From Lacinutrix sp. C3R15 (lineage in GTDB: Bacteria > Bacteroidota > Bacteroidia > Flavobacteriales > Flavobacteriaceae): 64,000 nt of DNA. The stretch's first letter is position 1. Each line of letters begins with the position of its first letter. Shown here in pieces: positions 50,593 through 58,332 of this stretch. Both the position numbers and the translations under genes were made by a program. Where the stretch lies: the NCBI RefSeq assembly GCF_018860825.1, contig NZ_JAHKPZ010000030.1, positions 287,695-351,694 of the forward strand, given 5' to 3'. The notes beneath the pieces are model-generated. The model saw only the letters and a list, made by a program, of their open reading frames with translations. It was not told where the DNA came from and made no database searches.

Positions 50593-51672
50593 TTAATCTA
50601 AATCAAATCGTAATCCTAGAGAAATATTGTTTTGGTCTATTGCCTGATCTTTAAATAAAGGAGATAAGTCATACTTAGCATAAAGTGCTACATTACCAAA
50701 AGACACATAACTACTAACACCATAAACAAAAGGATTAGCGTTTAAATCTGTTTCTTTATCCTTTTCTCTATTACCATCTAATTTGTATTTTATTTTATGC
50801 ATAGAGCTTAAGTTTACTCCTGCATAACCACCAACACCAATTTTAAATTTATTATACGTAGAGTATCTAAAGTACGTATCTCTTTCTATTTTTTTTGATG
50901 GTCCAAATTCAAAATGTATTGGCACAACTAAATTTGTAGATCTAAACTTAGATTTCTTTAAGTTAAAAGAACTTGTTTCTAAAGAAACAACACCATCATT
51001 TTCTGTTAAGAATTGATCCTCTTTTACATTTAGTTTATTCCATTGTACAGAGAGCCCATATTTTAAACGTACTGCATTGGTGTTTTTAAAAAGTCGCGTT
51101 TTCCATGCCCAACCTAATTCTATAAATCCAGAACCACCAAGTTTATATGGAGAGTCACTTAAAGATTGCCCTTCAATTATAGCATTATTAAATCCTATAG
51201 CAAAAACCATATCACTTGTGGTACGTTTATCATAAACCTTTGGTGTTGCTTTATCTTTTGGTCCAATATAAATGCCTCCTTTATCAAATTCATCAGAATC
51301 TTCTCCCTTTCCTATTTGAATTACCATACCATCTAGATTTGCTCCAACATCTGAGGTTACTTTTTCGTTTCGCTCTAAAAGCGCTATCTTATTATCTATA
51401 ATTGCTATTCTGTTTTCAATATTTAAAGCGTGTTTTTCTGCTTCCTTTTGCTTTAGTTCTTCGGCTTCTTCATTGGTTATTTCACCATTATCTAATTTGT
51501 TATTTATGGCAGCAACAGCTTCTTTTAAAAATTCTTTTTCTTGTAATTTTACCTCTTCTTTTTTAGTTTCTAAATATTCTATTTTTAAACCATTAGGGTT
51601 TTCTTGTGCCATAGCAAATGGTGTAGCACACACTAAAATAATACCGATTACGTATTGGGTTATTGTTTTCAT
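50593..51672 (-). CDS. Outer membrane beta-barrel protein with N-terminal coiled coil
   Basis: 359 aa. Signal peptide MKTITQYVIGIILVCATPFA, then a charged coiled coil (about 30-110) and a C-terminal part of amphipathic strands ending LRFDLD, typical of porin-like barrels. Aromatic-flanked strands (GFIELGWAWKTRLF, VPIHFEFGP) support this. Third gene of the sigma/anti-sigma operon, so probably its effector or sensor output. No more specific family recognised. Confidence 0.75.
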   Translation of the reverse strand: MKTITQYVIGIILVCATPFAMAQENPNGLKIEYLETKKEEVKLQEKEFLKEAVAAINNKLDNGEITNEEAEELKQKEAEKHALNIENRIAIIDNKIALLERNEKVTSDVGANLDGMVIQIGKGEDSDEFDKGGIYIGPKDKATPKVYDKRTTSDMVFAIGFNNAIIEGQSLSDSPYKLGGSGFIELGWAWKTRLFKNTNAVRLKYGLSVQWNKLNVKEDQFLTENDGVVSLETSSFNLKKSKFRSTNLVVPIHFEFGPSKKIERDTYFRYSTYNKFKIGVGGYAGVNLSSMHKIKYKLDGNREKDKETDLNANPFVYGVSSYVSFGNVALYAKYDLSPLFKDQAIDQNNISLGLRFDLD

Positions 51673-51700
51673 TTTGTTCGTTTTTTAATGATAATTTATA

Positions 51701-52480
51701 TTACTTATTTCTAGTTGTAACTGCTGTTGTTGCTGTTTTAAAATTCTTTTCAATTACTTTAAACAATTGCGTTCTTAATGAAGGAGGCATTTCTGTTTCA
51801 ACAGCTTCTAGTAATGTGTTTGCATTTACAGAAACAGACTTTACAGCATGTGTATCTGTTAACTGTATCTTTTTAGTTGCAGCCGCTAAGAGCGATTCTA
51901 TTTCAGATTCAGATGTTTTTAAGGTTGCAATCTGTGTTTCATCTTTAGTAGAAGCATCCATTATATTGGTTGTAACAGCCACAGTTTCCTCTATATCTGG
52001 TACAAGATTATTTAATGTTCGCGGTGTTTCCTCCTCCTGTTTTTTTGCTACAGCAACAACTGCTTGTTGTTTTTCTTTTCTATTCCTTTTTACTGTTGTA
52101 TTTGTTATTGTCTGGCTGTTTTTATTTACTTCTATTATATTTTCTTTTGCGCTTTCTTTTAAAGTTTCTTGTACTATTTCTTGCGATTTTTTTATTATTA
52201 AAGGAGTTTTAACAGAATTCGTTAACACCTCTTTTTCCATTTCTACAACTGTTGTCGAAACACCTGAATTGGCATTATTATAATTTACAAATTGCTGTGT
52301 AACAAACAAAATACCAACAATACTTGCAGCAATACCAAACCACCAAAACTTGGTTTTATTTTGTTTTTTAGCATCTGCATGTAATTGTCGCTCTAAACTT
52401 GCCCAAGCATTTGCAGAAGGTTCCAGCGTGCGCTTTTCTAGCTTTTCTTTTATATTTTCTTCAAATTTAATTGGTGCCAT
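51701..52480 (-). CDS. Probable membrane anti-sigma factor-like protein
   Basis: 259 aa. Cytosolic N-terminus with EKRTLEPSANAWASLERQL, a segment common in Bacteroidota proteins encoded after ECF sigma genes, one TM helix (about 44-64) and a long low-complexity periplasmic tail rich in Thr, Val, Glu and Lys. The start overlaps the sigma gene end by 14 bases. It may sequester the sigma factor; no zinc-binding (HxxxCxxC) anti-sigma motif is seen, so the role is inferred from position. Confidence 0.68.
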   Translation of the reverse strand: MAPIKFEENIKEKLEKRTLEPSANAWASLERQLHADAKKQNKTKFWWFGIAASIVGILFVTQQFVNYNNANSGVSTTVVEMEKEVLTNSVKTPLIIKKSQEIVQETLKESAKENIIEVNKNSQTITNTTVKRNRKEKQQAVVAVAKKQEEETPRTLNNLVPDIEETVAVTTNIMDASTKDETQIATLKTSESEIESLLAAATKKIQLTDTHAVKSVSVNANTLLEAVETEMPPSLRTQLFKVIEKNFKTATTAVTTRNK

Positions 52481-53030
52481 AACCTGTAGTGTTTAATGCT
52501 TTAATTTTTTGCTGAAGCGCTTTTCTAGCTTTAAATAATTGTGATTTAGAAGTATTTTCTGAAATACCCAAAATTGCTGCTATCTCCTGATGCTTATACC
52601 CTTCAATAGCATACATGATAAAAACTATTTTATACCCTTCAGGTAACTCATCTATGAGTTGCTGAATTTGGGCAACTTCCATATTGGTTTGCATATTATT
52701 AGTAGCATGTACAGCTTCTACTGCTGCGTCTTCAGAAAATACAATTTGCTTTTTCTTTCGTAAATAGGAAATAGATTCTCTAACCATGATGCGCCTAATC
52801 CAACCTTCAAAACTACCTTGTTTTTTAAAACTTTTTAAATTTTGAAATACTTTGAAAAACCCGTTTAACATGGCTTCTTCTGCAAACTGCGTATCTTTAA
52901 TATAATAACGACAAACGCTTAGCATTTTTGGTGCATGCAATTGAAACAATACGTGTTGGGCTTCACGATTGTTTTTAATTGCTTTTTTAATAAGCAAGGC
53001 TTCGTTTTTATGCAGTTGAATAACTTTCAA
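52467..53030 (-). CDS. ECF-type RNA polymerase sigma factor
   Basis: 187 aa. Region 2 (about 25-95: LHAPKMLSVCRYYIKDTQFAEEAM, GFFKVFQNLKSF, FEGWIRRIMVRESISYLR) and region 4 (about 125-180: LPEGYKIVFIMYAIEGYKHQEIA, GISENTSKSQLFKARKALQ). Group ECF sigma. First gene of a three-gene operon with the anti-sigma-like and barrel genes, the usual arrangement for envelope-stress regulation. Own promoter not identified. Confidence 0.95.
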   Translation of the reverse strand: MKVIQLHKNEALLIKKAIKNNREAQHVLFQLHAPKMLSVCRYYIKDTQFAEEAMLNGFFKVFQNLKSFKKQGSFEGWIRRIMVRESISYLRKKKQIVFSEDAAVEAVHATNNMQTNMEVAQIQQLIDELPEGYKIVFIMYAIEGYKHQEIAAILGISENTSKSQLFKARKALQQKIKALNTTGYGTN

Positions 53031-54149: not shown

Positions 54150-56753
54150 TCAGACTTTGTTTCTATATAACGAAGTATCAACGCATTTTACCATTTCTTT
54201 TTTATCTAAATCTACACCAACAAAAGAAGTTACTTTATCTAAAACCGCTTCGGTATTAAAAAGCACATCTTTATAATTTACATAAATAAGTTCTACACTT
54301 GGCTCTCTATCTTTCCAGGTTTCTACTTGGTTTAAGTGCTTATGGTATGCCTCAAATAAAGTAACAGGCAATACGTCTGGGTTTTTACCAATCATTTTTT
54401 GTTGTGATTTCACTACTTCTGTTAAATCTCGATTCATAAAAATAACCTTATAACGATACTTAGGATCTAGAAATTTAAGTAAAGGCGCAACTACTTTTAC
54501 GGTTTTATTTTGTGCTTTATTTAACCAAGAATTGTCTTTATGCAAGGCCATTACAGGGTCGTACTCAAAATAGCCTTTTGGGTTAGAATCATCCGATTTT
54601 CGCTTTCCGTCGGTTAGTACATCTACTCCACCATTATGTAGCATTTGCATCATGACAGAAGTACCAGAACGTGGCAAACCTGATACAATTACTATTTGGT
54701 CTTCTCTGTATTTATATGCTGCTTTATCTGTTAAATTAGTAGGTTCACTAAGTTTTTCTTCTATATTTTCAATGGCTTTTTCTGCTCTTACATGTTCTAC
54801 AGGTTTTAATTTTGCAGCAGTTTCATAAGCTATTTTTGCATTATCAAGATCGCCTAATTTTTCTAGAGCTTCTCCCAAAACATAATGCGCTGCTGGATAA
54901 TACTTAACCAATTCTATTGCTGTAAGAGCATGATCTGCAGCATTTTCAAAATCATTTAAACGAATTAAAACAGCAGCTAAAGCTTGATGATATTTTGCAC
55001 GATCTATTTCAAATTTTAATGCATTTTCAAAAGCAGTTTTTGCTTGTTCAAATTGATTTAATTTTGTGTGAATTTTACCTATTTGATACCAAACTTCAGA
55101 ATTAGGCCCTTTATCTTTAGCTATTTGAAGCACTTTTAATCCTTCTCTAATTTTTCCTTTTCCAACTAAAATTTTAGCTTCAGAAAAATAGGTGTTGATT
55201 TCAAATTTCTTATCTAATGTTCTTAATTTCAATAAATAATACTCGGCTTTTTCAAATTGATTTTGAATTAAAGCAATAGATAATAAATCCATATAATAGG
55301 GAATCACATCCACTATAGAATCGCCAACTTTTAAATCTTGTTGTTTTAATTCCTTTTCAGTTTTACCCTTTAAGTCACTTTCTTGATACGTAGGATAGGA
55401 ATCATTTATTAAATCAAGAAGCAATTCTTTTGCTTTTTCAAAGTCTTTTTTACCTAAAAACACTCTAGCTAAATTATGTTTTAAGTCACACTTTGTTTTT
55501 AAAATAGCCGTTTCAATTTTTTCATCTGGCTTATCTATATAGCCTAAATCTACCAATTGTTGCATGGTTTCTTGGTCACTTAACGAATTGGAATCATTAA
55601 CACCTTCGTGTTGTGCAAAATCACCTTTTACGTTTTCCCAGCTATCTAAATACTTTGGTTCGGTTGGTTTTTTAAAAATATCTAATGCTACTTTTCCATC
55701 CATATCTTTACCTATTGGCAAATCAAACATATGCAAAATGGTTGGAGCTATATCTATTAACCCTAGACCAAATACTTTTTCATTTTGTTTAATATTAGGT
55801 CCTGCAGCTACAAACATACCAAATTGGCGATGCTCTAAAGCAGGAGCTGCTGGATACTTTGGCATTTTTAAAATACGTTTGTTTCCAGATTCAAAACCAT
55901 GATCAGACATCACTATAATGGTAGTATCGTCATCTACCAACTCCATGGTTCGCTCTAACATCATATCTTGAATTTTATAAGCGCTTACTACTGCGTCTTT
56001 ATAAATATCATATGATTTTTGAGGTATACTGTTTAATTTTGGAGGATGATATTTCATAAAAGCATGACAAAAATGATCTATTAAATCATAATATACAGCT
56101 GTAAAATCCCATTCTGTAGTACGAATTAAATTAGTTGCAGCTGCATGAACAGAAGAATTTTCAGCTAAAATACTAGCAAAAGAAACCAAACCATTGTCTT
56201 TTTCTTGATCTATGTCTGCAGCTTTAGGAATACAAGGCTTAATATGCGCTTCTGTAATCTCATAAGGAAACACTCTTAAATCTTTTATTTTATCTGTAAG
56301 TGATTCTGGATGAATAGCACCTTTAATTATTGGATTTTTTTTACTTGGGTCTTTATTTACTTTTTGAAACTTATCAGATACGACAACTCCATTAATAGGT
56401 TCTGCAGGAAAACTTGGCCACCAACCTACTAAATTACTTTTATATCCTTTATGGTGCAGGATATTCCATATTGCTTTGGCTTTTCTAGAGTTAGTAGTAA
56501 CAGGACGAATACCTTTTAGGTTTGGCATAAGTTCTATAAAACCAAGAACACCATGTTTATCTGGTGTCTTTCCTGTAGCCACAGAAGACCATAACATTGG
56601 TGAATAAGGAGGGTTCATAGTACTCATATTCCCGTAAACACCCTTACTAATTAATTTTTTAAGTGCAGGCATTTCACCTTTAGCAATTAAAGGCCAAATT
56701 ATTTTCCAGTCTGCAGCATCCCAACCTATTAAAAGCACTTTATTTTTCTTCAT
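54150..56753 (-). CDS. Alkaline phosphatase superfamily - TPR - sulfotransferase fusion protein
   Basis: 867 aa, three parts. (1) Residues 4-390: type I phosphodiesterase/nucleotide pyrophosphatase-like metal hydrolase, with metal ligands D12 (GWDAAD), D226/H230 (LIDHFCH), D284/H285 (MSDHGFES) and H308, and a candidate nucleophile S51 (NPPYSPMLWSS). (2) About 420-665: tetratricopeptide-like helices (VWYQIGKIHTKLNQFEQAK). (3) 687-867: PAPS-type sulfotransferase with 5'-phosphosulfate loop SGLPRSGTS (691-699) and 3'-phosphate region VIFMNRDLTEVVKSQQ. No signal peptide, so probably cytosolic; a Trp-rich, charged N-terminus could touch membranes. It overlaps the 52-aa gene upstream by 14 bases. 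Roles in sulfation of glycans or small molecules are possible; substrate unknown. Confidence 0.85.
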   Translation of the reverse strand: MKKNKVLLIGWDAADWKIIWPLIAKGEMPALKKLISKGVYGNMSTMNPPYSPMLWSSVATGKTPDKHGVLGFIELMPNLKGIRPVTTNSRKAKAIWNILHHKGYKSNLVGWWPSFPAEPINGVVVSDKFQKVNKDPSKKNPIIKGAIHPESLTDKIKDLRVFPYEITEAHIKPCIPKAADIDQEKDNGLVSFASILAENSSVHAAATNLIRTTEWDFTAVYYDLIDHFCHAFMKYHPPKLNSIPQKSYDIYKDAVVSAYKIQDMMLERTMELVDDDTTIIVMSDHGFESGNKRILKMPKYPAAPALEHRQFGMFVAAGPNIKQNEKVFGLGLIDIAPTILHMFDLPIGKDMDGKVALDIFKKPTEPKYLDSWENVKGDFAQHEGVNDSNSLSDQETMQQLVDLGYIDKPDEKIETAILKTKCDLKHNLARVFLGKKDFEKAKELLLDLINDSYPTYQESDLKGKTEKELKQQDLKVGDSIVDVIPYYMDLLSIALIQNQFEKAEYYLLKLRTLDKKFEINTYFSEAKILVGKGKIREGLKVLQIAKDKGPNSEVWYQIGKIHTKLNQFEQAKTAFENALKFEIDRAKYHQALAAVLIRLNDFENAADHALTAIELVKYYPAAHYVLGEALEKLGDLDNAKIAYETAAKLKPVEHVRAEKAIENIEEKLSEPTNLTDKAAYKYREDQIVIVSGLPRSGTSVMMQMLHNGGVDVLTDGKRKSDDSNPKGYFEYDPVMALHKDNSWLNKAQNKTVKVVAPLLKFLDPKYRYKVIFMNRDLTEVVKSQQKMIGKNPDVLPVTLFEAYHKHLNQVETWKDREPSVELIYVNYKDVLFNTEAVLDKVTSFVGVDLDKKEMVKCVDTSLYRNKV

Positions 56754-56898
56754 CTACGTTTTTTTCTGCTTTATTTTTTTGTTTTACTTCTCTCCAAGCT
56801 CTTAAACCAATATCTCCATAAGCTAACAAACCTAAAGATCCTTCAATAGGGATGGTATAAGATTTATTATTTGATAAATTCTTATTTTTTTTTGTCAT
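56740..56898 (-). CDS. Small conserved-looking 52-aa protein overlapping the fusion gene
   Basis: ATG at 56896-56898, stop at 56740-56742; 52 aa beginning MTKKNKNLSN and containing EGSLGLLAYGDIGLRAWREV, then a Lys/Glu-rich tail. No signal peptide; too short for a TM helix with certainty, although the LGLLAYGDIGL core is hydrophobic. Its last 14 bases overlap the start of the phosphatase-TPR-sulfotransferase gene in another frame, a layout that implies translational coupling. I do not recognise a named family; it may be a partner or regulator of the fusion protein. Confidence 0.7.
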   Translation of the reverse strand: MTKKNKNLSNNKSYTIPIEGSLGLLAYGDIGLRAWREVKQKNKAEKNVDEEK

Positions 56899-57498: not shown

Positions 57499-57512
57499 AT
57501 GAAAAAAACTAC
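57481..57512 (+). repeat. Near-duplicate of the T9SS gene start region, copy 2
   Basis: Functional copy: contains the leader and the start codon (57499) of the cargo gene. Begins TTAAAACCTAGCAGAAATAT. Partner of copy 1 at 56995-57026. Confidence 0.6.
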
Positions 57513-58332
57513 TTTAAAAAAATCAAATAATTTAACAAAAAGACTTGCTCAATACGGAGCGCTAACAGCTGCTATTGCTGGTGTTGCTGACGCTAACGGC
57601 CAAATTATTTACACAGATATTACTCCTGATGAAGGAGGTGCAGGCGTACAGTATTTATTGGATATGGATAACGATGGAACTGATGATTTTTCTATAAGAC
57701 ATTTTTCTGCAAGTTCCTTTGGTGGCGCTGTGAATAATTTATTTGCTGCTCCTAACTCCTCTAATGGAGGTATTTTAGGAATTGATTCTTCTTTTGATTA
57801 CCCATTTGCTTTAGATGCAGGAGCAACTATAAGTAGCGGTCAAACTTCATGGCTTCCAGGAAATAATTATTACAAGACTATGAACTATAACAGTTGTAAT
57901 TATTTTAGTAGTCAATGGTGTGGAGTTACTGATAAATATTTAGGACTTCGTTTTCAAATTGCTGGCGCAACACATTATGGTTGGGCAAGATTAGATGTAA
58001 ATCAAGATTCTGGTTCTGGATGGCTAATTAAAGATTACGCATACAATTCTGTTGCTGGAGAATCTATTGAGGCTGGGCAAACACTAAGTATCGCTGAAAA
58101 TGCTATTAACGAGGTAAAGATTGTGAGTTTAAATAAATCTATAGCACTATACAATTTACCAGAAAACACAGATTATAAACTTTATGACATTACAGGTAAG
58201 TCTGTGTTAAATGGTTCTATTAACGATCATACTTATGTTATTGAAGCGAAATCTTTATCTAACGGTATTTATATTGTAGAACTTACAGACTCTTTTACTA
58301 AAACTGCAACTAGAAAGAAAATTGTTTTATAA
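57499..58332 (+). CDS. Secreted protein with T9SS type A sorting domain
   Basis: 277 aa. An N-terminal signal with an unusually long basic n-region (MKKTTLKKSNNLTKRLAQYG) and hydrophobic stretch up to ADANGQ. The middle (about 35-185) is beta-rich with ATHYGWARLDVNQDSGSGW and Asp/Asn-rich strands; no named domain recognised. The last about 75 residues are a T9SS type A C-terminal domain: NLPENTDYKLYDITGK, LSNGIYIVEL and the basic end TRKKIVL. Substrate of the Gld T9SS encoded at 8.8-13.5 kb. Cell-surface or released; function unknown. Confidence 0.88.
   Translation: MKKTTLKKSNNLTKRLAQYGALTAAIAGVADANGQIIYTDITPDEGGAGVQYLLDMDNDGTDDFSIRHFSASSFGGAVNNLFAAPNSSNGGILGIDSSFDYPFALDAGATISSGQTSWLPGNNYYKTMNYNSCNYFSSQWCGVTDKYLGLRFQIAGATHYGWARLDVNQDSGSGWLIKDYAYNSVAGESIEAGQTLSIAENAINEVKIVSLNKSIALYNLPENTDYKLYDITGKSVLNGSINDHTYVIEAKSLSNGIYIVELTDSFTKTATRKKIVL

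Follow-up and report, generated by a model that had tools for sequence, protein, structure and literature searches.

Surface proteins that a special signal commits to a path with its own modifying enzyme, much as is suggested here, have been described in Gram-positive bacteria, where GspB travels by the accessory Sec/Asp route. In the part of the published account drawn on here (PMC5578698), GspB is re-routed to general Sec when three glycines of the signal's hydrophobic core are changed, and a dedicated protein of the accessory route modifies the GspB cargo during export. The path proposed below for a gene set of the Bacteroidota would resemble this route, which, as far as that part of the account goes, would be its closest working analogue; the two differ, however, in phylum and in enzyme chemistry, and the present system has many cargos per genome, with a T9SS tail. 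Among the neighbouring genes read, no homologue of SecA2, SecY2 or the Asp proteins was noticed.

In exosortase/PEP-CTERM and sortase systems, a central enzyme serves dispersed proteins that share a common short sorting motif. The present system follows the same logic of one enzyme and many targets, but its motif is N-terminal, and the enzyme is predicted to be a cytosolic phosphodiesterase-TPR-sulfotransferase rather than a transpeptidase. Sulfation of exported proteins or peptides is carried out by RaxST and TPST, the latter with a GxPRSGT-type loop, and the enzyme described here may be likened to them, although it has AlkP and TPR domains in addition and its tyrosine acceptor is putative. 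O-GlcNAc transferase also has a TPR array beside a transferase, and our enzyme profile matches the TPRs of OGT; this match is confined to the TPRs, whereas the transferase here is of the PAPS type. Compared with the NPP/ENPP and PafA branch, the AlkP domain of the present enzyme has a serine at the presumed nucleophile position, and the protein has TPR and sulfotransferase domains fused to it and no apparent export signal. Among the open-access papers listed by literature searches, none was recognised as dealing with these genes; most subscription journals fall outside this scope.

A predicted phosphodiesterase-TPR-sulfotransferase enzyme

The window, which is the whole stretch of 64,000 nucleotides of Lacinutrix sp. 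C3R15 DNA that was analysed, contains the following features.

54150..56753, minus strand: 867-aa AlkP (NPP-like)-TPR-sulfotransferase enzyme (ORF list; Pfam models)
55644..56753, minus strand: AlkP-superfamily domain, about residues 1-370 of the 867-aa enzyme
54747..55517, minus strand: TPR array, about residues 413-669 of the enzyme (Pfam TPR models; helices in the structure model)
54150..54698, minus strand: PAPS-type sulfotransferase domain, enzyme residues 686-867 (Pfam Sulfotransfer_3/_1; GLPRSGTS at 692-699, R775, S783)
56740..56898, minus strand: 52-aa microprotein gene, in another frame than the enzyme ORF; conserved
56791..56841, minus strand: conserved microprotein core, residues 20-36 (GSLGLLAYGDIGLRAWR), with five invariant residues
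56740..56753, minus strand: 14-base overlap of microprotein end and enzyme start (ORF coordinates)
57499..58332, plus strand: 277-aa secreted cargo protein with special signal, all-beta body and T9SS type A tail (linkage; model)
57499..57603, plus strand: special N-terminal signal, cargo residues 1-35 (Tyr19 at 57553-57555)
58147..58326, plus strand: T9SS type A C-terminal sorting domain, cargo residues 217-276 (NCBIfam TIGR04183, E 1.1e-8)

An earlier note on this DNA had placed three domains with recognisable active-site loops on one chain, and both points have been borne out. The enzyme matches Pfam Phosphodiest (PF01663, residues 6-320, E 7e-28), several TPR models, with the best stretches at about 497 to 652, and, in its C-terminal part, Sulfotransfer_3 and Sulfotransfer_1 (E 3.8e-8 and 2.5e-6, up to residues 688-863); Phosphodiest, TPR and Sulfotransfer_3 (PF13469) models are all present in 26 of 26 enzyme relatives. 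D12, S51, D223, H227, D284, H285 and H308 are presumably the metal ligands and nucleophile of the AlkP domain, and in the sulfotransferase we take GLPRxGTS to be the 5'-PSB loop and R775 and S783 to be the 3'-PSB Arg/Ser. These predicted active-site residues are invariant in all 26 aligned rows, S696 of the loop alone varying, to T in some. The PF01663 fold with its seven presumed metal and nucleophile positions places the first domain in the AlkP/NPP branch, and the two PSB elements mark the last as a predicted PAPS-dependent sulfotransferase. In sequence searches of the PDB, the sulfotransferase domain has its top match in SULT 2zpt (E 2.3e-5), which is a tyrosine-ester sulfotransferase, and a profile built from the AlkP domain alone reached no chain at E 0.001. 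The fold comparison differs from this, as there the structural neighbours of the AlkP domain include ENPP, PafA and carbohydrate sulfatases. By eye, no export signal is apparent at the N-terminus of the enzyme, which should therefore encounter the preprotein in the cytosol.

Among PADLOC models of anti-phage defence, the enzyme matches a generic TPR model only (E 2.2e-5), and the microprotein and the secreted protein match nothing up to E 0.01, so that a reading as a defence system is unsupported by this search. A plasmid or viral origin was likewise rejected: the enzyme has no plasmid match at E 1e-20, and 13 pattern matches in viral contigs included no relative of it.

A microprotein that overlaps the enzyme gene

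The 52-aa frame at 56740-56898, its 14-base overlap with the enzyme and its different reading frame, all claimed by the earlier note, were confirmed from the ORF coordinates. The microprotein matched no Pfam or NCBIfam model up to E 1, and its best PDB match has an E-value of 0.29, which does not assign it to a known family. Conservation of the frame in relatives has also been upheld. When the 52-aa sequence was searched in 199 family-level genomes, it was present in 20 genomes at 21 places, and at all 21 it sits directly upstream of the enzyme ORF. From a scan of genome contigs across phyla, the best 80 of 259 enzyme relatives were taken, and in 78 of these 80 loci the enzyme gene has the core motif just ahead of it (75 by script and L144, L141 and L171 by eye; in L141 a stop between the core and the nearest ATG makes the start uncertain), with a reach from Flavobacteriaceae to Chitinophagaceae and Bacteroidales. 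L167 is one of the two loci without it. On a MAG contig, L129, the frame upstream of a close enzyme relative (73%) is unrelated to the microprotein, and the script found no intact ORF for that enzyme.

In an alignment of 53 rows, which includes Chitinophagaceae and Bacteroidales MAGs, L22, L25, A26, G28 and W35 of the microprotein are invariant. The called microprotein and enzyme frames overlap in 67 of 75 loci, where the longest enzyme ORF was used and starts are approximate, and in 50 of the 75 the GWD codon lies 14 nt from the microprotein stop. This near-constant overlap fits both the coupled translation and the partner role that had been proposed for the pair. For the core, pN/pS is about 0.21 (0.080/0.382) between the window and L093, and its median is 0.62 (quartiles 0.51-0.73) over 245 pairs with pS between 0.05 and 0.55; because these pairs are mostly distant and near-saturated (mean pS over all pairs is 0.73), the ratio is a weak witness for them, and the case rests on motif conservation instead. 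The 52-aa ORF is a real gene, for which the amino-acid motif kept across orders is the stronger evidence.

A microprotein-like core (ITKEGSLGLLALGSQGLLTWRQKR, E 4e-8) also occurs in an 82-aa ORF at about 9213-9460 of L178, from a genome of another family in the same phylum (G431); no enzyme gene lies near it, and the only match of that genome to the enzyme profile is to the TPR. Microprotein-like matches in G564, G443 and G124 look like chance. That the microprotein might mimic the signal described below was considered and rejected, as profile comparison with hhalign detected no kinship.

A secreted neighbour with a T9SS tail

A third partner, which the earlier note had overlooked and which gives the best clue to function, is the divergent neighbour at 57499-58332. 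A homologue of this gene is linked to the enzyme in 76 of the 78 loci, while rlmN is found in 43 and the polyprenyl synthase in 40 of the same loci, some of which are cut by contig ends; no other neighbour tested is linked as tightly. Of the two loci that lack a cargo homologue, L133 has a partial match at a contig end, apparently on the same contig (G122:C33). The placement of the cargo gene varies: it is divergent in some loci, convergent downstream in others, and in still others downstream, co-directional and in tandem. Beyond the polyprenyl synthase lie a gene that by eye is sigma-factor-like, the next gene and an envelope protein gene (window 50593-53030), with homologues in 31, 30 and 29 of the 78 loci.

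The TIGR04183 T9SS type A tail is present in 26 of 26 secreted-protein rows scanned, which identifies these proteins as T9SS cargo. Beyond this tail, the body matches no Pfam or NCBIfam model. The 277-aa protein was modelled with a mean pLDDT of 83 and a pTM of 0.62; Foldseek returned no match at E 0.001 or better, a VIA comparison aligns mostly the T9SS tail, and, as the model is of the whole protein, the fold of the body is not claimed as new. A body-plus-tail profile matches 126 of 199 genomes at E 1e-8, and among the matches listed most are to the T9SS tail only. Partial matches to this profile occur in G077 and G096, with no enzyme found in either genome, and in G033, in a frame whose signal is strong and looks ordinary and whose start differs, being metalloprotease-like.

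A special N-terminal signal with an invariant tyrosine

The secreted proteins begin with a signal of the consensus LSK[KR]LA[KQ]Y[GS]A[LM][SAT]xAIxGVADAxGQ, and in a 31-row alignment of about the first 35 residues the sole invariant column is the tyrosine. A set of 118 proteins was assembled from 107 proteins of the collected loci that BLAST matched to the window protein, ten pattern-picked proteins and the protein of the window itself. All 104 signals that could be anchored have the tyrosine; ten of them were preselected by pattern for it, and leaving those ten out gives 94 of 94. The spacing from the tyrosine to the conserved glutamine is identical in 78 of the 104. Among the 14 unanchored proteins, 12 share mainly the T9SS tail, and two (L106 and L168) are seemingly mis-started.

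The special signal is weakly hydrophobic. Over the best 12 residues its median hydropathy is 1.56 (range 1.04-2.37), as opposed to 2.10-3.24 in five homologues with ordinary signals (four from enzyme-less genomes and one remote paralogue in G024), so that the two ranges touch (2.37 vs 2.10). T9SS proteins of other types in the same loci have a median of 2.71 (13 proteins, including the mis-started cargo L168).

Co-occurrence of enzyme, microprotein and signal

At E 1e-80, and with four candidates scored per genome in the first scan, the enzyme was found in 21 of the 199 family-level genomes. The microprotein profile likewise matches 21 genomes, of which 20 are enzyme genomes and one, G124, is a chance match within a 528-aa frame (E 0.009). 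In G015, the one enzyme genome that lacks a microprotein match, the enzyme is a fragment cut by the contig end. A 45-residue signal profile, which covers the start of the mature protein and so favours one body family, matches 22 genomes. The full-length signal, in 26 copies, is present in all 20 genomes that have both enzyme and microprotein and in no others; in the remaining two, G098 and G116, the profile matches the mature part only. Both are enzyme-less (G098 has a single TPR match to the enzyme profile, G116 none), and their secreted homologues (G098 has three, all in the syntenic stretch, and G116 has one) start with ordinary strong Sec signals. The Fisher value for the family is 1.4e-26, which overstates the evidence because the genomes are related. 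The sole other genome of the window's genus in the draw, G168, has neither enzyme nor microprotein, so presence is patchy. In G196, two complete enzyme-microprotein pairs (L040 and L041) accompany four signal-bearing secreted genes. The enzyme-bearing G024 also has a remote homologue of the secreted family with a lipoprotein-like N-terminus (L233, 9003-9710), and with ordinary or lipoprotein-like homologues in that genome the enzyme does not define every member of the secreted family.

A second order, that of G259, was represented by 99 genomes, of which 23 have the enzyme, 20 the signal and 19 both (Fisher value 1.6e-15, again with independence overstated among related genomes). The four enzyme genomes without a signal match are G259, G599, G603 and G666, and the one signal-only genome, G619, has a likely chance match (E 0.01, in a 557-aa frame); in two of the 19 shared genomes the matches are weak (G580, E 1.7e-5; G645, E 0.001). 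In some other genomes of this order, a few matches span the mature part of the profile only. Most enzyme genomes have one enzyme copy, as opposed to up to 22 signal matches (22 in G617, 20 in G628 and 16 in G638), which lie on many contigs. Of 29 rows listed for the enzyme, two were set aside (in G599 a partial extra copy, in G587 the gene's second segment). Of the 27 copies left, 18 have the microprotein immediately upstream (16 by script and two by eye), and in the other nine it is missing from the upstream DNA covered, about 1.5 kb (711 nt for one copy, in G666). Whether enzyme and microprotein always co-occur, as the earlier note had asked, is answered in part: they do in 20 of the 21 enzyme genomes of the family, the exception being the contig-cut G015, but not in these nine second-order copies.

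The proposal that the pair is a lineage-specific insertion that recently interrupted the usual gene order is contradicted by these results, since the cassette is common to several Bacteroidota orders and its absence from G098 has the appearance of a loss. In that genome, the stretch from rlmN to the polyprenyl synthase (L230, 8276-10984) holds three tandem secreted homologues with ordinary signals and neither enzyme nor microprotein. In a wider draw of 395 genomes of the phylum, with two candidates scored per genome, only the window's genome and G259 reach E 1e-60, so the system seems uncommon overall. One contig labelled Candidatus Rokubacteria (L149) carries a flavobacteria-like enzyme locus (56% identity) and is probably mislabelled or mis-binned.

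A possible cytosolic handling step before secretion

The three-part association of enzyme, microprotein and special signal is strong. It suggests that the enzyme and microprotein, together with the tyrosine-marked signal proteins, form an undescribed handling system that acts before secretion in many Bacteroidota. The explanation that we prefer, to which we give about an even chance, is that enzyme and microprotein are a cytosolic unit dedicated to special-signal proteins, which they probably modify or escort before export; the chemistry and the binding of the microprotein are what we infer. The special-signal proteins, which are T9SS-sorted surface proteins in the cases tested, would be the cargo of this unit. 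The TPR array, probably with the microprotein, would recognise the weak signal and its tyrosine, and the sulfotransferase would place sulfate, in the cytosol, on the preprotein or on something carried by it. The AlkP domain may act on the preprotein, reversing the mark, or may hydrolyse the inhibitory nucleotide by-product PAP, after which the preprotein would be passed to Sec and the T9SS would place the cargo on the surface. Stated in full, this would be a Bacteroidota sorting and modification system with a new class of N-terminal signal marked by an invariant tyrosine, in which a microprotein-TPR complex reads the signal, the sulfotransferase marks the protein and the AlkP domain handles the by-product or the mark, all before Sec/T9SS export and for up to about twenty surface proteins per genome; a proposal this complete is possible but doubtful.

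In a more specific form of the preferred explanation, the sulfotransferase would sulfate the signal's invariant tyrosine, or else one in the mature protein, and the AlkP domain would remove PAP or undo the mark, which would make the enzyme a protein-tyrosine sulfotransferase with a recycling or eraser domain. The tyrosine found in every anchored signal (104, ten of them preselected), the tyrosine-ester sulfotransferase as top PDB match and the 5'-loop GLPRSGTS, invariant save one S/T swap, point this way; however, the matched protein is a SULT-type small-molecule enzyme with a modest E-value, and the context of the signal tyrosine is basic, which is atypical, as eukaryotic tyrosine sulfation takes place in an acidic context. 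We regard this form as unlikely. Small molecules and glycans are common substrates of PAPS-type sulfotransferases and NPP-like domains, and this, with ENPP, PafA and carbohydrate sulfatases as neighbours of the AlkP domain, favours an enzyme that sulfates or trims an envelope glycan or lipid whose product the cargo uses, with the microprotein as a subunit or membrane tether and the odd signal as incidental. Such a role is somewhat unlikely, as it cannot explain why the signal, and not the start of the mature protein, separates the secreted copies of enzyme-bearing and enzyme-less genomes.

There is a lesser but real chance that the microprotein serves the enzyme only, as its inhibitor, chaperone or translational leader, with no part in cargo handling. 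The near-constant overlap, which suggests coupled translation, and the nine second-order enzyme copies without an adjacent microprotein are consistent with this, while conservation at the protein level across orders exceeds what a leader needs, though it is still compatible with an enzyme-only role. A linkage due solely to a shared divergent promoter or to inheritance of the neighbourhood agrees with the fact that most flavobacterial loci listed are arranged divergently, but the linkage persists when orientation and side have changed, dispersed and unlinked signal copies still co-occur with the enzyme, and the other neighbours are kept less often (rlmN and polyprenyl synthase in about half of the loci, some contig-cut); it is disfavoured as highly improbable.

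Implications

If the preferred explanation of a unit dedicated to special-signal proteins is true, one class of signal peptide would predict a whole set of surface proteins and name the enzyme that handles them. Sulfation or phosphoryl chemistry would then be coupled to secretion in the Bacteroidota, and a function would be given to a microprotein family that lies outside all Pfam and NCBIfam models. Should the chemistry turn out otherwise, the association of the three parts still offers a way into a secreted family for which Pfam and NCBIfam have a model of the T9SS tail but none of the body.
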